Positions 29,173 to 61,660 of a DNA stretch of 64,000 bases are shown piece by piece. This DNA comes from Chitinophagales bacterium (GTDB lineage Bacteria; Bacteroidota; Bacteroidia; Chitinophagales; Chitinophagaceae), in the NCBI GenBank assembly GCA_026931325.1, contig JAIXLO010000160.1, positions 62,001-126,000 of the forward strand. The letters are read 5' to 3'. The position numbers and the translations under genes are program-made. Each line of letters starts with the position of its first letter. The first letter of the stretch is position 1. The notes beneath the pieces are model-generated. The model made no database searches and had not been told where the DNA came from. It saw nothing but the letters and a program-made list of their open reading frames with translations.

Positions 29173-29608
29173 ATTGGTCCCAGGTGATATTTATTTAAAG
29201 GGTGTTAATTATTTTATTTATGTTGGTAAAATAAACACATTTATGCCTTTAGACTTTTCATTTGAAAAATTAGAAAAAAAACAGTATAATTTACACTTAA
29301 GAATAAATAAATCCCATTTAGATAATATTAATGATTTGTTTTTCAAGTCAAAGTCAAACTTGTTATCAAGAGTAAAATTTTACTCAATAAATAAATTTTC
29401 TAAATTAACATTTTCACAATATATAAAAAATATAGAAATTGATAAAGATAAAATTGTATCTAATTTAAAAATAATTTCTAAAGAAAAAATAATAAATATG
29501 TGTGAAAAGAAGCATTATCAAAGTAATTTTATTGATATAGGACTTAAATTAATAAATGTTGATAGAGAGGTTGCAGTAAATTTTAAAGATTTTAAAATGT
29601 TAATATGA
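29135..29608 (+). CDS. Hypothetical PGDIY-domain protein
   Basis: A 157-residue protein from ATG 29135, with AAGGA 4 nt upstream but overlapping the previous gene. Residues ~13-50 (LVKLVPGDIY … NYFIYVGKI) are paralogous to the domain in 28067-28930. The rest is lysine-rich alpha/beta. It overlaps the helicase start by 4 nt. Possibly one half of a frameshifted gene with 28927. Confidence 0.45.
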   Translation: MKLNEYSQNLLVKLVPGDIYLKGVNYFIYVGKINTFMPLDFSFEKLEKKQYNLHLRINKSHLDNINDLFFKSKSNLLSRVKFYSINKFSKLTFSQYIKNIEIDKDKIVSNLKIISKEKIINMCEKKHYQSNFIDIGLKLINVDREVAVNFKDFKMLI

Positions 29609-31470
29609 ATTATTCTGAGTATCAAAAAACTATATTTAATGATATACATTCGGGGACCGGCAATACAGCTATAATAGCTTTTGCCGGCAGTGGTAAAACT
29701 TCTAGCTTAGTTGAGGGTTTAAAATTTATTCCAAATAAAAAATCAAAAACATTGGTAATAGCATTTAATAGATCTATTGCTGAAGAATTGAGAAATAGAA
29801 CTAAAACAATAGAAAATATTGATTGTTTTACTTTTCATGCTTTGGGGTACAGGGCAATTCAAAATAAATTTGGTAAAGTTGAAATAGATGAATATAAAGT
29901 GCAAAACATAGCTGAAAAATATGTTAGCTCAATATATGAAGATAGTATACCGGACTTATGTAAAACCGTTTCACTATGTAAATTTTCACTACAAGATAGT
30001 CCAGAAGAAATAGAATATTTAATGGATATTTATAATATTGATCCATATCCATTAAAAAAAGAACTATTTATACAATCAGTAATTAAAATATTAGGTAGAT
30101 GTAAGGAAGAAAAATCAATCATAAATTATGATGATATGGTTTGGTTTCCATTCGTACATAATATGTATGTAGGAAAATGGAATAATATTTTTGTAGATGA
30201 ATGTTTTCCATATTATCAACGTATCTTAACTATAAATGGTGAAGAAGAAATAGGAAAAATTTATGATAAATTTAAAAATAATCAACCGTTGCCATTAGTT
30301 AAAAGCTTTAATGAATTAACTGAACAATTTGAATATTGTAAAATAAATAATGCTTGGAATCGTGGAATTAAAAGATTAGTTGAAGTTCATGCAGGTAAAA
30401 TAAAAATTAAATGTACAGAAAATCATAAATTTTTAACTAATTTTGGTTGGGTAGAGGCTAAAAATTTACATCCTGGAGTTTTAATTAAAACCTCAGCCTC
30501 CGATCTCATTAATAACCAAAATTTTGGATACTGTGCTATAAATAATGTTATTCCTACAAATTTTTATGAAGAAGTTTATGATATTGAAGTTGATAAAAAT
30601 CACAATTTTATAGTTTGCTCTAATAGCAGCCCCGAATCAAATAATGGACTAATTGCTCATAATTGTCAAGATTTAAATAGAGCGCAATTAAATATCGTTG
30701 AAATAGCTAGGAAACCTAATACTAGGACATTTATCTTTTTAGATAGATTGCAAGCAATATATAATTTTATGGGTTCAAATATAGATACAGTCAATCATGT
30801 AATTAAACGTTTAGATTGTAAAGAATTGTATTTGCCTATATCATATAGATGTCCCAAAAGTGTTGTAAATTTAGCTAAAGAGTTTGCCCAAGAAATTAAA
30901 GCATCAGAAAATGCTATTGATGGCAACGTTTATACAATAAAAAAAGATCAGCTTCTATCACATATAAAAGCCGGATCTTTTATTTTATCGAGATTTAATG
31001 CGCCGCTGATTACATATTGTATGATGTTATTAAAAAATAACATACCGTCAATTATAAAAGGAAAAGATATTGGTTCTAATCTTTTGTCATTTATAAAAAA
31101 ATCAAAATCTAGAAATATAGATTCTTTTAGAACGTATTTGAAAAAATGGAAGCTTTCGGAAATTGAAAAATTGACAAAGGAAAAAAAATCTATAGATCAT
31201 ATTCTAGATAAATATGAATGTTTGGATTCATTATGTCATGAAGTAAATGGTATAGCAGAGTTAAGAAATATGATACAAAAACTATTTATTGATGTTGATG
31301 ATAAAGATAAAGTGATATTATCAACAATCCATAAAGCAAAAGGGCTTGAAGCGAATAATGTATTTATAATTTCTTCTACCTTAAGAAAAGGTGTAAATCA
31401 AGAAGAAAATAATTTAGTGTATGTTGCTATTACTAGAAGCAAAGAAAATCTATTTTTTATAGAAGATTGA
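29605..31470 (+). CDS. UvrD/Rep-type SF1 DNA helicase, intein-interrupted
   Basis: 621 residues as encoded, about 467 after splicing. Helicase motifs: I (AFAGSGKTSSL, ~25-35), Ia (LVIAFNRSIAEEL), a TFHALG motif, then motif II (NIFVDE-CQDLNRAQ) split by an intein between Glu199 and Cys354. Motif III/IV (FIFLDRLQAIYNFMG), LPISYRCP, and motifs V/VI (LSTIHKAKGLEANNVF … LVYVAITRSKENLFF) follow. It unwinds DNA by 3'-5' translocation. Splicing must restore the DEcQD ATPase site before the enzyme can work. Confidence 0.9.
   Translation: MNYSEYQKTIFNDIHSGTGNTAIIAFAGSGKTSSLVEGLKFIPNKKSKTLVIAFNRSIAEELRNRTKTIENIDCFTFHALGYRAIQNKFGKVEIDEYKVQNIAEKYVSSIYEDSIPDLCKTVSLCKFSLQDSPEEIEYLMDIYNIDPYPLKKELFIQSVIKILGRCKEEKSIINYDDMVWFPFVHNMYVGKWNNIFVDECFPYYQRILTINGEEEIGKIYDKFKNNQPLPLVKSFNELTEQFEYCKINNAWNRGIKRLVEVHAGKIKIKCTENHKFLTNFGWVEAKNLHPGVLIKTSASDLINNQNFGYCAINNVIPTNFYEEVYDIEVDKNHNFIVCSNSSPESNNGLIAHNCQDLNRAQLNIVEIARKPNTRTFIFLDRLQAIYNFMGSNIDTVNHVIKRLDCKELYLPISYRCPKSVVNLAKEFAQEIKASENAIDGNVYTIKKDQLLSHIKAGSFILSRFNAPLITYCMMLLKNNIPSIIKGKDIGSNLLSFIKKSKSRNIDSFRTYLKKWKLSEIEKLTKEKKSIDHILDKYECLDSLCHEVNGIAELRNMIQKLFIDVDDKDKVILSTIHKAKGLEANNVFIISSTLRKGVNQEENNLVYVAITRSKENLFFIED
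30202..30663 (+). mobile_element. Mini-intein (154 aa) in helicase motif II
   Basis: It starts at Cys200 (block A, CFPYYQRILT) and ends His352-Asn353 followed by Cys354 (block G, GLIAHN-C). Block B has CTENHKF (TxxH), block F VYDIEVDKNHNFIV. The whole is only 154 residues, with no LAGLIDADG or HNH endonuclease domain, so it is a minimal splicing domain that can no longer home by itself. All residues for standard Cys/Asn/Cys splicing are present. Confidence 0.9.
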
Positions 31471-39663: not shown

Positions 39664-39880
39664 AGAGATGTTATGGAAAGCAGCCAATAAGAAAAAATTC
39701 AGTTTTGATGGTTGGGAAAATTATCAAATAAAATATAAGTTGGTTTATAATGGATTTATACAAGGTGTCATTCCGTTAGCTAAATTTTTAAAAGTAAAAT
39801 ATCCTTTAGATAATTGTGATTGTTTTGAGTGTAAAAATAAAACTATTAAAAATATTATGGAAAGATTAAAATATGAATAA
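39644..39880 (+). CDS. Hypothetical protein
   Basis: A 78-residue protein with a pair CDCFECK near the C-terminus. The start may be ATG 39644 (20-nt overlap) or ATG 39668. Unrecognised; it overlaps purA by 8 nt. Confidence 0.45.
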   Translation: MLKKINEEMLWKAANKKKFSFDGWENYQIKYKLVYNGFIQGVIPLAKFLKVKYPLDNCDCFECKNKTIKNIMERLKYE

Positions 39881-41015
39881 TATAGCAATACTAGACCCAC
39901 TTTGGGGCGATAATGGTAAGGGCGGATGGACGCATAAATTTTCACCTCAATTTGATTGGGTGGTAAAATGTGCCGGCGGTAATAATTGTGGGCATACGTT
40001 ATACTATATGGATAAAAAATATGTGCATCATTTAGTACCATCTATTAATTTTGAAGAGTCTGATGCAAAAGGGTTTATATCGTGTAATACTGTAATTGAC
40101 TTACAGGCTATGTATGATGAAATAATAGATTTAGAAAAATCATTTAAAGGCGTTGGATCTAGATTATATGTGGATGTAAATGCCCATGTAGTTACAGAAT
40201 CTCATAAAACAGAAGATAGAGAAGCCAATAAGCATATTGGAACTACCGGAAAAGGAATTGGTCCTTGCTATAGAGACAAAATAAATAGATCTGGCACAAG
40301 AATAAAAGATCTATTTAATAATAATGATGTAAAGAAATTAAAAGAAATTGGTGTAACATTTACAACATTTTCTGCTTTATATGATAATTTTATGAAGTCA
40401 AAGTTATTATTTGAAGGATCTCAAGGAATTCTATTAGATATAGATCATGGTACTTATCCATATGTAACATCATCTCAAACTAATTTAGCTTCTATAGTAG
40501 CCTCTGGATTTGCAAATAAACACTTATTACCAAATAAAGTATTTGGTGTAGCTAAATGTTATGCTACTAGAGTTGGCAATGGTCCATTCCCAAGTGAACT
40601 AATGAATGATGTTGGAGAAAAACTAAGAGAGCTTGGTAAAGAATATGGAGCAACAACTGGAAGACCAAGAAGAGTTGGATGGTTGGATATTCCTTTATTA
40701 AATTACTCATGTAGAGTAAGTGGCATAACTAATCTTATATTTACTAAATTTGACGTACTAAACAATTTTGATGATTTACATGTTGTAACTCATTATAAGC
40801 TGGGCGAACAATTTGTATCAAGAATAGATGATTTAGATATTATAAAAAATAAAACTGTTAATGACTTAAGTTTAGAAAAAGTTTCTAAATGGAACGATGC
40901 TTCAAATATACAACAATTAAAATCATTTTTTAATATTGTTGATAAATATGTTGATGTTCCAGTAGAATATATATCTTTTGGTACAAAGAAAGAAGATTTT
41001 AAAAAAATTGGATGA
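39873..41015 (+). CDS. purA: Adenylosuccinate synthetase
   Basis: A 380-residue protein with the family's motifs: LDPLWGDNGKGGWTH (catalytic D13), GGNNCGHTLYY (H41), TTGKGIGPCYRDK, EGSQGILLDIDHGTYPYVTSS, GVAKCYATRVGNGPFPSEL and TTGRPRRVGWLD. It joins IMP and aspartate with GTP to give adenylosuccinate. The usual D13 is kept; phage PurZ enzymes for the 2-aminoadenine (Z) genome carry a Ser-type replacement there, so a normal AMP pathway role is more likely. It is shorter than bacterial PurA (about 430). Confidence 0.9.
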   Translation: MNNIAILDPLWGDNGKGGWTHKFSPQFDWVVKCAGGNNCGHTLYYMDKKYVHHLVPSINFEESDAKGFISCNTVIDLQAMYDEIIDLEKSFKGVGSRLYVDVNAHVVTESHKTEDREANKHIGTTGKGIGPCYRDKINRSGTRIKDLFNNNDVKKLKEIGVTFTTFSALYDNFMKSKLLFEGSQGILLDIDHGTYPYVTSSQTNLASIVASGFANKHLLPNKVFGVAKCYATRVGNGPFPSELMNDVGEKLRELGKEYGATTGRPRRVGWLDIPLLNYSCRVSGITNLIFTKFDVLNNFDDLHVVTHYKLGEQFVSRIDDLDIIKNKTVNDLSLEKVSKWNDASNIQQLKSFFNIVDKYVDVPVEYISFGTKKEDFKKIG

Positions 41016-42936: not shown

Positions 42937-43113
42937 ATGAGATTATTAGTATGCCCTGTTTGTGAAGGCGAGATGGAAGTTTTTGGTCATCATTTAGATC
43001 AAAAAAAGAAAGTAAAGTGTACGTATTGTGGATTTAAAAATTTTGAAGAAAAAAAACAACCAGTAGTTGTTTATAATAAACGTCAAACAAATAATATAGA
43101 GGATAAAAAATGA
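42937..43113 (+). CDS. Small zinc-ribbon protein (58 aa)
   Basis: ATG 42937, with AAGGA just upstream, gives MRLLVCPVCEGEME … KCTYCGFKNF, a clean two-CxxC ribbon (C6, C9, C28, C31) plus a basic tail. It overlaps the Hsp20 gene by 4 nt. Such mini-ribbons often bind RNA polymerase or ribosomal partners. Confidence 0.65.
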   Translation: MRLLVCPVCEGEMEVFGHHLDQKKKVKCTYCGFKNFEEKKQPVVVYNKRQTNNIEDKK

Positions 43114-43451
43114 AGAATATGCCTTTCAATTATTTTAATAATATCTTTGATACTTTTAGTATTTTTAATGCTTTTGATGCTTTTGATAATATTGATAGCT
43201 TAAAATATAGTTATGAAGATAAAGACGGTAAGCTATTTTTAAATGTAGAGGTTCCTGGGATTGATCCACAGAGAATTAAAGTTGAGTATGTAGGTAATTT
43301 ATTGCTTATTGAAGCTGATAATAAAAAATTAGAATTAACATGTATTTATAATATGTCAATGATGACTGCTGAAGTAAGAAATGGTATGTTATACTTAATA
43401 ATTCCGACCCAGAGACAAAATGCTGGCAAGGTGAAGGTAGACATTAAGTGA
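43110..43451 (+). CDS. Small heat-shock protein (Hsp20/alpha-crystallin)
   Basis: A 113-residue protein. A phenylalanine-rich N-terminus (NAFDAFDNID) precedes an alpha-crystallin domain: LFLNVEVPGIDPQRIKVEY, LLLIEAD, and a final G-M-L-Y-L-I-I-P strand with a short tail. Phage Hsp20 proteins act as ATP-independent holdases, useful during head assembly. Compact, with no C-terminal I-x-I motif. Its stop overlaps the macrodomain GTG start. Confidence 0.8.
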   Translation: MKNMPFNYFNNIFDTFSIFNAFDAFDNIDSLKYSYEDKDGKLFLNVEVPGIDPQRIKVEYVGNLLLIEADNKKLELTCIYNMSMMTAEVRNGMLYLIIPTQRQNAGKVKVDIK

Positions 43452-52306: not shown

Positions 52307-52766
52307 TATATGTAGATATATTTTTGAGAATTTTGGAATATTTTCAGAAAAAAAATTTTCAATAATATCTGATGATTTTAAATTGGATAAAGGTATTTTA
52401 TTTGATGATAAGAAAAATAATATCTATGGAGTAGAGTATTTTTTAGATGATTTTAAGATAGAAATATTATGTGCTGATTGTACGATAGATTCCAAAGAAT
52501 ACGCTATGTATGTAGGAATAGATAATGGTGGCTTTGGTTTATTTTTATCAGAAGATTACGAATGTGGAAACATATCATATTTATTTGAAAATAAATATGT
52601 TGAAGCAAGTGTACAGCAGCAAGCAAATTTATTATCATCATTAGAAGCGCTAAAAAATTATAAGTTTTATAATTTAGAATTAAGAAAGGTTAGTGATTAT
52701 TCATATAATGAATTAATTAAATACATAGAACATGTTGTTATTTTACTAGGTAATAATGGTCAATAA
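52287..52766 (+). CDS. Hypothetical protein
   Basis: A 159-residue acidic alpha/beta protein. Strands GVEYFLDDFKIEILCADC and YVGIDNGGFGLFLSEDY suggest a beta core. No known family. It sits in a chain of overlapping small genes leading to DksA and ClpP. Confidence 0.45.
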   Translation: MNYLTNNICRYIFENFGIFSEKKFSIISDDFKLDKGILFDDKKNNIYGVEYFLDDFKIEILCADCTIDSKEYAMYVGIDNGGFGLFLSEDYECGNISYLFENKYVEASVQQQANLLSSLEALKNYKFYNLELRKVSDYSYNELIKYIEHVVILLGNNGQ

Positions 52767-53028
52767 AGAGATGTTAGAATTAGTCGCGCAAGAATCAAAA
52801 GGAATTCTTGATTATAATAAGTGTAGTATTATATCTGAATTTCTATTTAAAGAAATGGCAGCTTCGATAAATGAAAATGAGGAATTTGTTTTATTTGAAG
52901 TTGGAGTTATAAAAGGATACAAAAGAAAAAATAGGAGAATAAGTAATCAAAGGTTATATAAATTTGCTCCTAGAATATTTGCTTCTGATGAATTTTCAAG
53001 AAATTTAAAAAAATTTAAAAAGAGTTAA
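52756..53028 (+). CDS. Small basic protein, possible HU-like
   Basis: A 90-residue protein. An N-terminal helix pair is followed by FVLFEVGVIKGYKRKNRRISN, a strand with a basic arm, then LYKFAPRIFAS, which resembles the HU beta-arm region. It is not decisive. The basic arm suggests DNA or RNA binding. Confidence 0.4.
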   Translation: MVNKEMLELVAQESKGILDYNKCSIISEFLFKEMAASINENEEFVLFEVGVIKGYKRKNRRISNQRLYKFAPRIFASDEFSRNLKKFKKS

Positions 53029-53034
53029 GGATAA

Positions 53035-53394
53035 ATGCATTATTCAAAATTAGAATATTTTAAACAAAAATTAATAAATGAAAAACAAAATCTGTTAACA
53101 ATGTTATCTAATTCTCAAAAAAATATCAATATAGATAATGATGGAGATGAGGTTGATGAAATTCAAGCGAATCAAATTCAAGGTATAGATTCACAAATAT
53201 CAAAAAGAGCTACACAGAAATTAAATCTTATTTCAATAGCTCTAGATAAAATTGATAATGAAGGATATGGTAATTGTGAAGATTGCGGAGAAGAAATTTC
53301 GGAGAAAAGATTAGACTTTAATCCATGTTTTAGTACGTGCGTACTTTGTGCAGAAGAAAGAGAGTTTGAAAATAGGCAAAAAGGAATTAGATGA
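53035..53394 (+). CDS. DksA/TraR-family zinc-finger protein
   Basis: A 119-residue protein. N-terminal coiled coil (LEYFKQKLINEKQNLLTML), an acidic tip segment (DNDGDEVDE) and the DksA zinc finger GNCEDCGEEISEKRLDFNPCFSTCVLCAEERE. It binds RNA polymerase through the secondary channel and can mimic the ppGpp response, altering host promoters. It is translationally coupled to the ClpP-like pair that follows. Confidence 0.85.
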   Translation: MHYSKLEYFKQKLINEKQNLLTMLSNSQKNINIDNDGDEVDEIQANQIQGIDSQISKRATQKLNLISIALDKIDNEGYGNCEDCGEEISEKRLDFNPCFSTCVLCAEEREFENRQKGIR

Positions 53395-53972
53395 ACAATA
53401 TTATTTTGGAGAATGTCATAAGTAATGAAATGCCTTCCGATATATTTCAAAAAATGTATGCGGAAAGAACAATATTTATTTCTGATATTATCAGCGATGA
53501 AGTTGCCTCTGGAATTGTGGCTACATTGTTATTAATGGATTCAAAAAGTGACGATAAAATTACTATATTTTTAAATTCTGAATTTAGCTTAATACAAAAT
53601 GTTATGCCAATATATGATGCAATGAGAATTACAAGATCTCCAAAAAGCGTTATTTGTATGGGGTCAGCAATAGGCGAATCAGCTTTAATTTTGGCTGCAG
53701 GAACTAAAGGATTAAGATTTTCAACACCAAATGCTTTAATAGGATTAACTAAAGCTTCATTTGATAATCCTATGTATTCTGATTTAACAAATGTAAAAAT
53801 AGAGTTAGATCAAATGAAAAAATATAATAAAATGTATACTAAAGAATTGGGCATATGTTGTAATAGATCAAAAACAATAGAAAAAGATTTAGAAAAGCCT
53901 TTATTTTTAAATCCTAAAGAAGCCAAAAAATTTGGTGTTATAGATGATATTATAAAACATGGAAAAAGTTAA
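53391..53972 (+). CDS. Inactive ClpP-like subunit (ClpR-like)
   Basis: A 193-residue ClpP fold, but all three catalytic residues are replaced: Ser position is Gly95 (CMGSAIGESALILAAG), His position is Thr120 (IGLTKA), and the Asp position is Pro (LEKPLFL). The SPGG oxyanion loop is also altered (NSEFS). Fold-defining parts are kept (IYDAM, LAAG, KEAKKFGVID). It overlaps the active ClpP gene by 14 nt, so it probably forms mixed rings, like ClpR in cyanobacteria and plastids. Confidence 0.8.
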   Translation: MNNIILENVISNEMPSDIFQKMYAERTIFISDIISDEVASGIVATLLLMDSKSDDKITIFLNSEFSLIQNVMPIYDAMRITRSPKSVICMGSAIGESALILAAGTKGLRFSTPNALIGLTKASFDNPMYSDLTNVKIELDQMKKYNKMYTKELGICCNRSKTIEKDLEKPLFLNPKEAKKFGVIDDIIKHGKS

Positions 53973-54507
53973 TAGATTTTCAGATATTTACGTAGAGCTT
54001 TCGAAGTATAGAAACATATTTTTATGTGAAGAGGTAACTAAGGATGTCGCTGTTACAATGTCCGCATTACTTTTTTATTATGACGCTATAAATAATGATC
54101 CCATTAGAATTTATATAAATTCTAATGGCGGAGATGTTATGGCGTTATATAATATTTATGATGTAATGCAGATAATAAATTCTCCAATATATACAATATG
54201 TATTGGTAAGGCATACTCCGCTGCTGCTGTTATATTGGCTGCAGGAAGTCCAGGACATAGATATGCGTTTAAACATTCAGATGTTATGATACATGGATTA
54301 CAATGCTTATTTGCTACAGAAAAAGATGCCCAAGCTTCTCAACATTATTTTGAAAATAAATTAATAAAAATAAATGATAATGTTTTGAAACTTGTGGCGA
54401 AACATACAAAACAACCACTATCAAAAATCAAAGAAGATTCTAAAAGAGATTTTTTTCTTCAAGCATCAGAAGCTAAAAAATATGGTATAGTAGATCATGT
54501 TCTCTAA
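53959..54507 (+). CDS. clpP: ClpP-like serine protease subunit
   Basis: A 182-residue protein with an intact triad: Ser87 (CIGKAYSAAAVILAAG), His112 (DVMIHG) and Asp164 (KRDFFLQ). It has the NSNGGD oxyanion loop and an N-terminal region. ClpP rings degrade unfolded proteins fed by ClpX or ClpA ATPases; no Clp ATPase is seen in this window, so the host's or the AAA+/MoxR proteins here may serve. Phage ClpP is known as a prohead protease fold too. Confidence 0.85.
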   Translation: MEKVNRFSDIYVELSKYRNIFLCEEVTKDVAVTMSALLFYYDAINNDPIRIYINSNGGDVMALYNIYDVMQIINSPIYTICIGKAYSAAAVILAAGSPGHRYAFKHSDVMIHGLQCLFATEKDAQASQHYFENKLIKINDNVLKLVAKHTKQPLSKIKEDSKRDFFLQASEAKKYGIVDHVL

Positions 54508-54528: not shown

Positions 54529-56493
54529 ATGGAAAAAAATGCAAGATCAAAATCAAAAGATCAGGCGCAAGAATCTATTAGATCTTCTAAAGAAAATTGG
54601 AATAAACGTGTATCAAAATTTATAGATGATACAATCCATTTAAAGAAAATGGTTAATGGGTATCCATCTAAATTTTATTTGCAGCGAGGAAAAATAACTC
54701 AACCATTACCAGTTGAGCCATCTAAAATATTAAGCTTATTAACTTCTGAATATAAAGAAATTGCTGATGAATATTTAGAAATAGCTAAAATGCAGCAAGA
54801 TTATGCAACGAAGCGTATGCAAAAAGAATCAAGTATTAATATTGAAGCCAGTAATAAACTAACTAGATTTAGATCTTATTTATCTGGTCCATTTTTTGGA
54901 GATGATGAAAAAGCTGAATTAAATAGAATGAGGAAAGTTATACTTTCCTCATTTGCAGATATTTATTATGCAACAAAAAAATTAAATTCTAATATTTTAA
55001 AAAGAGACGCTGAAAGTATACATGAAGCGGCAAATAATTTTAATACATTTACGGATAATTTAAATGCTATTATAAAATTGATAAAATTAGAAACATCAAA
55101 AAAAGAAGTGCATGATAAACCAGAGCAGCAACAAGAACAGCCTGCCAAACCACCAGAAAGTTTAGATAAGGATAAAAAAGATAAAACTACTTCGGACAAA
55201 AAGAAAGAAGACAAGAAGGAAGACAAAAAAATAAAGGAAGATAAGCCTAAAGAACAGGCTGTTGAGCAGCAAAAACCTTCTGTACCGACTGAAGAAATAC
55301 AAAGATTACAGCCTGGGCAACGTATACAAGAACCAATTGTTCCTAGTGTTCAAGAAAAAGAGCCTGAATTAAAATCAGAGCCAGAGGCAAGTGTGCAGCA
55401 AGAACCAACAATTTCTGAACCAGAAGCCCCTAAAAAACAAGAACCAAAAGTAGAAGAAAAACAAAAATCAATTCGTAAAGAATCTCCATCAATTGATGAG
55501 TTATTGGTTTCTAAATATGATAAATATTTGGAAGAAGCTGAAGAAAATAAAAAAGCTGGCAAAAAAGGATTACCAAAGGTTGATATAAATAAAGCTCAAA
55601 TAGAAAATAACTTAATGGCTGTTATTACAAGTGATTATTTTAAAGAGTATGTTTCAGAACTTCCTGGCATTGAAGTAGAAGTAATAATCAATGCTGCCAA
55701 AAATTTAACAAAATATTATAGAATGATGCATGTTTACTTGAATAAAAATCTTGATTATTCATTTAGCACAAATGCAGTAAAATTTATAAAAGACAAAATA
55801 AAATTAGATGTAACATCTTATACAGAATTTAAAGCATTATTAGCGAACAAATTAAATGAAATTGGAATAGCTCTTTTATCTCTTGGATTTGTTTATAATC
55901 ATTTAAAGAAAAATGATGAAGTTCCAGTTGAAGATAAAGGTGAGGTTTTATTTTTAGCAGACTCTAAGTTAAAAAGATTTATAAATTATTTTACTAAAAA
56001 TGCAGAATTATTTAATCATATAGGTGTTCCAAGAGACATGCCTGGTACAGTAATAAATAAGATATTTTCAGAGCAGCCAAAAAAAGAGGGGCATATCAAT
56101 AATACTTTTGTAAAAGAAGGAATTAAAGCAATAGATTGGACGAACAAACTACTACATCAATTGCGCTTCTATGACAAAACTTCTCCAATTAGACTAAAAA
56201 TATCTAAATTTTCAGAACTTGTCATGAAAGTAATTGATAATGAAATGAATTCTTTAGAAGCAGATTTAGATTTTGGTAGATTGTTTAAAACAATTAGCGA
56301 TTTATCTTTATTACAAAGTAAAATTTTTGAATTAATGCAAGATTTAGCTGACATAGCCAGAAATACTAAATATACTGGAGATATTCAATCGTTATTGAAG
56401 GAACGATATTATTATGATACAGGATTGGATGAAGATTTGGTAAAGAAATTGGAAAAGAGATTGAAAGAGCAACAGCTACGTAGGTTACTATGA
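54529..56493 (+). CDS. Large coiled-coil protein with acidic linker
   Basis: A 654-residue protein. N-terminal helical part (to about 185), then a long Lys/Glu/Pro/Gln-rich low-complexity region (about 190-320), then a helical C-terminal half. No enzyme motif. It resembles virion or scaffold proteins in style, and also the 888-residue minus-strand protein. Function unknown. It overlaps DUF192 by 4 nt. Confidence 0.55.
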   Translation: MEKNARSKSKDQAQESIRSSKENWNKRVSKFIDDTIHLKKMVNGYPSKFYLQRGKITQPLPVEPSKILSLLTSEYKEIADEYLEIAKMQQDYATKRMQKESSINIEASNKLTRFRSYLSGPFFGDDEKAELNRMRKVILSSFADIYYATKKLNSNILKRDAESIHEAANNFNTFTDNLNAIIKLIKLETSKKEVHDKPEQQQEQPAKPPESLDKDKKDKTTSDKKKEDKKEDKKIKEDKPKEQAVEQQKPSVPTEEIQRLQPGQRIQEPIVPSVQEKEPELKSEPEASVQQEPTISEPEAPKKQEPKVEEKQKSIRKESPSIDELLVSKYDKYLEEAEENKKAGKKGLPKVDINKAQIENNLMAVITSDYFKEYVSELPGIEVEVIINAAKNLTKYYRMMHVYLNKNLDYSFSTNAVKFIKDKIKLDVTSYTEFKALLANKLNEIGIALLSLGFVYNHLKKNDEVPVEDKGEVLFLADSKLKRFINYFTKNAELFNHIGVPRDMPGTVINKIFSEQPKKEGHINNTFVKEGIKAIDWTNKLLHQLRFYDKTSPIRLKISKFSELVMKVIDNEMNSLEADLDFGRLFKTISDLSLLQSKIFELMQDLADIARNTKYTGDIQSLLKERYYYDTGLDEDLVKKLEKRLKEQQLRRLL

Positions 56494-60631: not shown

Positions 60632-60819
60632 TATGTAGTAATTGTTCAAAATTATTGTTAAAATACACAGTAAAACAATGTACTTTATGCTCTAATAAAG
60701 TCTATGTTAATATAGCATCTCTTTGTGATTATTGTTCTAATACATCAAAGTCATGTAGTATTTGTAAAAAATCTTTAAGCTCCTCAATTGGTAGAGGATG
60801 TAATAGTTGTGGAAAATGA
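60628..60819 (+). CDS. Cysteine-rich zinc protein (63 aa)
   Basis: A 63-residue protein with five CxxC pairs (CSNC, CTLC, CDYC, CSIC, CNSC) evenly spaced, enough for two zinc ribbons plus one pair. ATGA overlaps at both ends. Likely protein- or RNA-binding; unknown function. Confidence 0.6.
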   Translation: MICSNCSKLLLKYTVKQCTLCSNKVYVNIASLCDYCSNTSKSCSICKKSLSSSIGRGCNSCGK

Positions 60820-61331
60820 TTATAAAAAATAATCCAGAAGCAATTTTATTAAATTGTGAAGAAGTAAGAGAATCTGAAGTTGGAGAATTAATTTCATTGC
60901 TTGAAAGGGAGTTATTGTTATCCGAATTAAATGGTGAACCAGGAATAGGATTGGCTGCTCCCCAGCTAGGAATTGCAAAAAAAATAGCAATAGTAAGAAT
61001 AGATAATACTAAAATAAATTTAGTTAATTGTTCAATAGATAAATATTATGATCCATTTATATTTAAAGATGAGGGATGTTTATCTTTTCCTGGCAGAGTA
61101 GAAAATACTAAAAGATTTCAAGAAATAGTTATTAAAAATAATCTTGTATATCCTAAAAATTTTATTGCTACTGGATTAGTAGCAGTATGTTGCCAGCATG
61201 AAATTGAGCATTTTAATAATAAATTATTTTTTGATAATAAAGTAAAAGAAAATATAAAAATAAAGCAAAAGCCAAATGATCTATGTAATTGTGGATCAAA
61301 TAAAAAATATAAAAAGTGTTGTGGTAAATGA
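60816..61331 (+). CDS. def: Peptide deformylase with SEC-C zinc tail
   Basis: A 171-residue protein from ATG 60816. PDF motifs: GIGLAAPQ (43-50), EGCLS (86-90, metal Cys) and QHEIEH (127-132, HExxH). It removes the N-formyl group from new proteins. The C-terminus adds a SEC-C zinc motif (LCNCGSNKKYKKCC, 157-169), which is unusual on PDF. SEC-C binds ribosomes or partners (as in SecA). A host-like enzyme on the phage may speed maturation of phage proteins. Confidence 0.85.
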   Translation: MIIKNNPEAILLNCEEVRESEVGELISLLERELLLSELNGEPGIGLAAPQLGIAKKIAIVRIDNTKINLVNCSIDKYYDPFIFKDEGCLSFPGRVENTKRFQEIVIKNNLVYPKNFIATGLVAVCCQHEIEHFNNKLFFDNKVKENIKIKQKPNDLCNCGSNKKYKKCCGK

Positions 61332-61660
61332 ATTATGTTTTAGATTTAAAAGATATTGATTATACAAAAAACATTTGTTTATATTTTTATGCCAATTGGC
61401 TACCATACAATAAAAATATAAATAAAATAATTACTTCTTTTGAATTAAAAAATAAAAATATTATTTTCTATGCTATAGATGTTGATACATTTAAAACAAT
61501 AACTAAATCGCTAGAAATAAAATCGGTTCCAACATTTGTATTTTTTTCCAAAAATAAAGAAATTGATAGATTTGTTGGGAACACTTTATCGAAAGGATTT
61601 AATAGTTTTTGTATTAATTTTTTAAAAAAAGTTGAAGAGGAAAAAAATGGAAAAAAGTGA
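61328..61660 (+). CDS. Thioredoxin-fold protein without active cysteines
   Basis: A 110-residue protein. The fold is clear: ICLYFYANWLPYNKNI at the active-site position, IDVDTFKTITKSLEIKSVPTFVFF with the cis-Pro. The WCGPC motif is replaced by W24-L-P-Y-N28, so no disulfide exchange is possible. Probably a binding or clamp role, as in T7 polymerase with host thioredoxin (analogy only). Overlaps the PDF and next genes. Confidence 0.65.
   Translation: MNYVLDLKDIDYTKNICLYFYANWLPYNKNINKIITSFELKNKNIIFYAIDVDTFKTITKSLEIKSVPTFVFFSKNKEIDRFVGNTLSKGFNSFCINFLKKVEEEKNGKK

Follow-up and report, generated by a model that had tools for sequence, protein, structure and literature searches.

A pair of overlapping genes on a large phage contig encodes two ClpP-like proteins, here termed A and B, of which A has lost all three catalytic residues and B has kept them. 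We tentatively favour the interpretation that A and B form a phage-encoded mixed core, similar to ClpR/ClpP, which would dock on the ClpX of the host. No report of a phage-encoded inactive ClpP was found in a literature search that covered few subscription papers. If the interpretation is true, the phage pair would provide another system, small and easy to express, for asking why rings keep inactive subunits. Moreover, a phage would be seizing regulated proteolysis by means of its own core, going beyond an adaptor such as Gp53 of phage SPO1 (available portion of PMC6873191).

Locus and Phage Contig

The window analyzed is a stretch of 64,000 nucleotides, positions 62001-126000 of a 383,427-bp contig (C75) in a 3.1 Mb bin; positions given below are those of the window unless C75 is named. 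Genes for a terminase, portal, tail sheath, baseplate wedge, DNA polymerase, and RIIA are found on C75, which by this gene content is a jumbo phage or phage-like contig. Comparison of its first 3 kb with its last 3 kb revealed no terminal overlap. A and B are its only ClpP genes.

ClpP-like A (53391-53972, plus strand) is 193 amino acids long and ClpP-like B (53959-54507, plus strand) 182. Matches to the Pfam family CLP_protease (S14) span nearly the whole of both proteins (7.2e-34 for A and 1.3e-51 for B), and the best hit in a sequence search of solved structures was a ClpP in each case (E 4.4e-25 and 6.3e-36, respectively). As read directly from the open reading frames, A runs 14 nt into B in a different frame (53959-53972, plus strand), and fusion of the two by frameshift would require a +1 shift. 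The open frame of B comprises 183 codons, so its start could not lie much further upstream. The frame of A is unbroken over 193 codons. GC3 is 0.166 in A and 0.170 in B, compared with a mean of 0.165 for 16 other open reading frames of the window. A and B share 28% identity (49 of 176 aligned residues) and are 30% and 40% identical to E. coli ClpP, respectively.

Upstream, a gene for a DksA/TraR-like zinc-finger protein of 119 amino acids (53035-53394, plus strand) overlaps A, whose ATG is at 53391, by 4 nt, again as read directly from the frames. Its matches to PF01258 (2.3e-6, over the cut-off) and phrog_54 (6.4e-11) place it with the DksA/TraR C4 zinc-finger proteins. Just ahead of it, a small open reading frame (52756-53028) matches the HU family (PF00216) weakly, at an E-value of 0.008 that falls below the cut-off.

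The pairing of phage and host is putative and is based on binning and on similar G+C content, which ranges over 0.25-0.28 in 4-kb stretches of the window and 0.27-0.30 in eight stretches of the host. The bin has a clpP and a clpX of its own, adjacent on another contig (C176), and this ClpX contains an IGF motif. In three loci of the host family (L067, L069, and L082) the gene order is clpP1-clpP2-clpX, and all six of the encoded ClpPs have intact triads. In the source genome only one of host clpP1 and clpP2 was found; since the clpP contig (C176, 5.3 kb) and the trigger factor contig (C11, 4.5 kb) are short, the second copy was possibly lost at a contig break. None of the bin's seven AAA_2 unfoldase matches lies on C75, and neither does its single ClpS match, which is located elsewhere in the bin.

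Active-Site Residues

A and B were aligned with E. coli K-12 ClpP. Ser97, His122, and Asp171 of the E. coli enzyme correspond in A to Gly95 (GGC, 53673-53675), Thr120 (ACT, 53748-53750), and Pro170 (CCT, 53898-53900). In B they correspond to the catalytic residues Ser87 (TCC, 54217-54219), His112 (CAT, 54292-54294), and Asp164 (GAT, 54448-54450), all codons being on the plus strand and located from the alignment and the DNA. In A the SPGG loop is replaced by SEFS (codons 63-66, 53577-53588, plus strand, also from alignment and DNA), with Glu-Phe-Ser in place of Pro-Gly-Gly. Further losses in A include both glycines of this loop, together with Met98 (Glu in A), Gln123, Pro124, and Arg170 in E. 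coli numbering. The last, the oligomer sensor of ClpP, is Lys in A. B has an SNGG loop in which both glycines are kept and Asn replaces Pro; relative to E. coli ClpP it also has Ala for Met98 and an altered loop after the catalytic His. Taking a Ser-His-Asp triad with an SPGG-type loop as the mark of an active ClpP, B carries it and A does not, and B would by its residues be an active-type ClpP peptidase. The first-pass annotation had described a phage-encoded pair of overlapping ClpP-like genes next to a DksA-like gene, the first lacking Ser, His, and Asp (as Gly95, Thr120, and a Pro) and the SPGG loop and the second keeping its triad, and each of these points was recovered here.

Predicted Folds, Termini, and Docking Surface

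Single-chain AlphaFold2 models were obtained for both proteins. The model of A reached a pLDDT of 90.3 and a pTM of 0.85 with an alignment of 51 sequences, and this alignment of homologues aids the confidence; the model of B (pLDDT 91.0) has a confident ClpP fold. Foldseek comparison of the A model with ClpPs in the PDB gave TM values of about 0.86-0.89. The ClpP fold of the dead protein, on which the first-pass annotation had made its reading depend, is thus borne out by prediction.

The A model was compared with BFVD, which holds predicted structures of viral proteins, as well as with the PDB, and the B model with BFVD only. The best BFVD match of A was A0A6J5RS39 (38% identity to A, 33% to B) and that of B was A0A6J5RRW5 (48% identity to B, 29% to A), each also being within the first three matches of the other query. 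Such separate best viral matches are expected if another phage carries both lineages. Both entries are labelled "uncultured Caudovirales phage" and have alphabetically close accessions, and therefore may come from one genome. As structure matches, they hint that the pair may be conserved in another phage.

The ends of the two proteins differ in length. The stretch ahead of the first conserved Asp comprises 16 residues in A and 8 in B. Mature E. coli ClpP has 17 residues there, and the minimum among 57 other aligned ClpPs, whose start codons were picked by script, is 12. The N-terminal segment of ClpP is the axial pore loop. After the conserved Asp near the C terminus, 3 residues follow in B, 8 in A, and 7 in the E. 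coli protein, and a C terminus at most 3 residues past this Asp was also found in 4 of the 57 other ClpPs. Much of the unfoldase-docking pocket stays hydrophobic in both A and B by alignment; changes were found at positions 60, 114, and 192 in A and at 22, 26, and 60 in B.

In the mixed core that we tentatively favour, A would be a non-catalytic ClpP-fold subunit, resembling ClpR of ClpP3/R in its working, and B would contribute the Ser-His-Asp sites. Through its N-terminal axial segment and C-terminal tail, A would form the pore for entry and contribute to the surface on which an unfoldase docks. As no AAA_2 unfoldase is found on the phage contig, host ClpX is the unfoldase that the core would employ, and ClpX working with a phage core could change the choice of proteins degraded during infection. 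We infer co-expression and co-assembly of A and B, docking on ClpX, and altered substrates; the overlap of the genes on one strand was counted in favour of a mixed core. A division of labour like that of ClpR and ClpP is supported indirectly by the N-terminal segment, which is found in A and not in B, and by the hint of a pair in another phage. Based on the complementary ends, long at both termini in A and short in B, it was proposed that pore and docking surface belong to A and the catalytic sites to B. A stronger form of this proposal is rather unlikely: that neither subunit works alone, that the arrangement arose independently of ClpR and has been kept in a phage lineage including the A0A6J5RS39/A0A6J5RRW5 phage, and that the phage reprogrammes host ClpX with it.

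Alternatively, A could be a dominant-negative decoy that joins host ClpP rings or caps host ClpX and so blocks ClpXP, with B working by itself or protecting the phage. In favour of this are the N-terminal segment and the many hydrophobic pocket positions retained in A. Host Clp is also a known target of phages, Gp53 of SPO1 being described as binding the ClpC of ClpCP (available portion of PMC6873191). Moreover, there are two ClpPs in the host family, and mixed rings may therefore be normal in the host. However, A is about 28-32% identical to host-type ClpPs, which is low for joining foreign rings, and an active partner encoded alongside it would be needless for a pure poison. We regard the decoy as doubtful.

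Divergence and Relatives of A

At 45 well-conserved alignment columns (at least 80% conserved), the conserved residue is kept at 19 in A and 31 in B, compared with 24-45 in 49 other ClpPs. In A, 12 of the 14 columns of the active-site shell have lost the conserved residue, compared with 14 of the 31 columns outside it (Fisher p 0.02, for a shell drawn after the conservation table was seen); B has no excess loss in the shell (p 1.0). A diverges throughout, and not at the active site alone. Its terminal branch measured 4.05 and 4.42 in two trees, neither of which held a ClpR sequence, compared with a median near 0.35, and its placement is without support. B groups with viral ClpPs (L143/L148) with support of 99/94, and of 91/94 in a smaller set. 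A and B as sisters, as expected from duplication, were not rejected (p-AU 0.399), nor was a grouping of A with L117 (p-AU 0.269). Two sources of A were tried and rejected, namely capture of a host ClpP2 (p-AU 0.023) and the phage "type 2" ClpP, whose profile gave A 11.6 bits. As the type 1 profile gave it 105.0 bits, A is closer to ordinary ClpP; B scored 67.0 bits with type 2 and 163.5 bits with type 1.

Close relatives of A were not found by pattern in scans of viral contigs or genome contigs. The best tblastn identity to A was 32.1% in 74 phage records and, among the matches listed, 34.2% in 115 plasmid records. Among 395 genomes of the phylum the best match outside the source genome had an E-value of 3.2e-26. 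Only the source genome matched at E ≤ 1e-30 among 394 genomes of the family, and at E ≤ 1e-28 among the genomes searched from the class (395) and the order (396), these genome sets overlapping. No second ClpP was found in the stretches fetched near nine genome-contig relatives of B, and pattern searches gave no viral relatives of the neighbouring gene (54529-56493) or of the DNA polymerase.

This divergence, with 19 of the 45 columns kept and no close sequence relative, speaks against a mixed core, as do the Lys for Arg170 in A and the altered docking-pocket positions of both proteins, and the fast change leaves room for degeneration as well as for poisoning of host ClpP. A might then come from a duplicated or captured clpP that is decaying and no longer functions, and B might be the sole working phage ClpP. 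A duplicate would fit the sister grouping that was not rejected, and decay would fit the branch of 4.05-4.42, the 26 of 45 conserved columns lost, and the lack of close sequence relatives. It accords poorly with a 193-codon frame that is unbroken, overlaps its neighbours on both sides, and has phage-like GC3, with the confident predicted fold (helped by the homologue alignment), and with the 38% match in another phage. The unbroken frame, GC3, and predicted fold suggest that A has been retained as a protein rather than being an evident pseudogene; its degeneration is accordingly judged unlikely.

The rarity of a dead viral ClpP was examined by two pattern scans of IMG/VR, which matched 217 and 155 loci; the best 80 of each were taken, some contigs occurring in both. 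These 160 loci gave 164 ClpP open reading frames, 124 of them distinct: 120 with Ser-His-Asp, 3 with Ser-His-Asn, and 1 ending before the Asp. None of these 124 from the best 80 loci of each scan, and none of another 35 ClpPs from phages and bacteria, has lost Ser or His, both sets having been gathered by similarity or motif and being biased to intact proteins. As the patterns relied partly on the Gly-Gly loop, dead ClpPs other than neighbours are under-sampled. A triad of Ser-His-Asn instead of Ser-His-Asp was noted in the phage ClpPs L145, L130, and L168-L171, and also in L001-L004; ClpP1 of Listeria reportedly has such an Asn triad.

A second ClpP frame was present in the fetched flank of 4 of the 160 loci (L154, L164, L175, and L229), directly adjacent only in L175. 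Whole records contained two or three ClpP genes in 12 of 50 IMG/VR contigs (50 of the best 80 loci of the first scan) and in 6 of 10 named phages. The copies are at least 34 kb apart in these six phages and within about 1.5 kb in 3 of the 50 contigs. By these counts two ClpPs are ordinary in a large phage, and an overlapping pair with one dead member is not.

Genomic Surroundings

A and B are located at 115.4-116.5 kb of C75, with genes for DksA-like, DUF192, and topoisomerase proteins as neighbours. A very improbable reading makes them a protease of head maturation together with a scaffold-like partner that lacks catalysis; many ClpP-fold proteins of phages carry a head-maturation annotation. 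In its favour, the best PHROGs matches of B belong to this class of protease (phrog_94, E 7.1e-21), and no prohead protease was recognized in seven proteins scanned around the portal and capsid genes (a partly scanned region). However, the pair lies outside the head and packaging cluster, with about 42 kb between it and the portal gene at 158.6 kb, and beside the neighbours named, a position for which the PHROGs label was rated low, and B is more like a full cellular ClpP (Pfam 1.3e-51).

Several other phage genes were noted. C75 encodes a trigger factor (C75 130816-132060, PF05697 1.3e-20), one of two in the bin, and the window contains genes for an Hsp20-like protein (43110-43451), a peptide deformylase with a SEC-C motif (60807-61331), and a thioredoxin (61328-61660). 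An adenylosuccinate synthetase is encoded at 39873-41015 (PF00709, E 1.8e-101); enzymes of the PurZ kind make 2-aminoadenine. The terminase (C75 155624-158527), helicase (window 29605-31470), and UvsX-like protein (C75 138808-141066) contain stretches matching other families. The matches of these stretches across the set are to LAGLIDADG phrog_11023, phrog_16259, and terminase profiles, and the stretches are possibly inteins. At C75 188532-194288, four adjacent minus-strand frames of 463-483 amino acids were found, three of which have similar starts and appear paralogue-like.

Comparison with Known Systems

The clpP1-clpP2(-clpX) loci of the host family resemble A and B in having two neighbouring clpP genes. 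They differ in that all six of their triads are intact, and the grouping of A with host ClpP2 was rejected (p-AU 0.023). The single ClpPs of jumbo phages (PA5oct, CBB, Atu_ph07, Lak, and uncultured phages of 634-642 kb) have the protein family in common with A and B; however, where copies are multiple they are at least 34 kb apart, and the aligned copies keep Ser and His. The ClpP of some jumbo phages is possibly used against the host, according to the available portion of a review (PMC7824862). An adjacent pair of ClpP-family frames also exists in a viral contig (L175), but both of its members have Ser-His-Asp, and the first matches ClpP much more distantly (E 2.5e-17).

A close parallel in working is that of ClpR, which lacks the triad, is inactive, and is found in cyanobacteria, plastids, and apicoplasts (available portion of PMC7966870). 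Cyanobacterial ClpP3/R is a working mixed core with three active and four inactive subunits per ring, and in Synechococcus its partner is ClpC (available portion of PMC4673316). A shares the features of a ClpR-type protein, being a ClpP homologue without triad that has an active-type partner, B, in the same genome. The likeness to ClpR/ClpP pairs drawn at first sight is apt in the sense that a triad-less A beside an active-type B would work like them. Unlike ClpP3/R, A and B are found in a phage rather than in a cyanobacterium or plastid, their genes are adjacent and overlapping, and they are known here from genes and single-chain models. Furthermore, B is without most of the N-terminal segment, and the nearest candidate unfoldase for the pair is host ClpX, whereas that of the Synechococcus core is ClpC.
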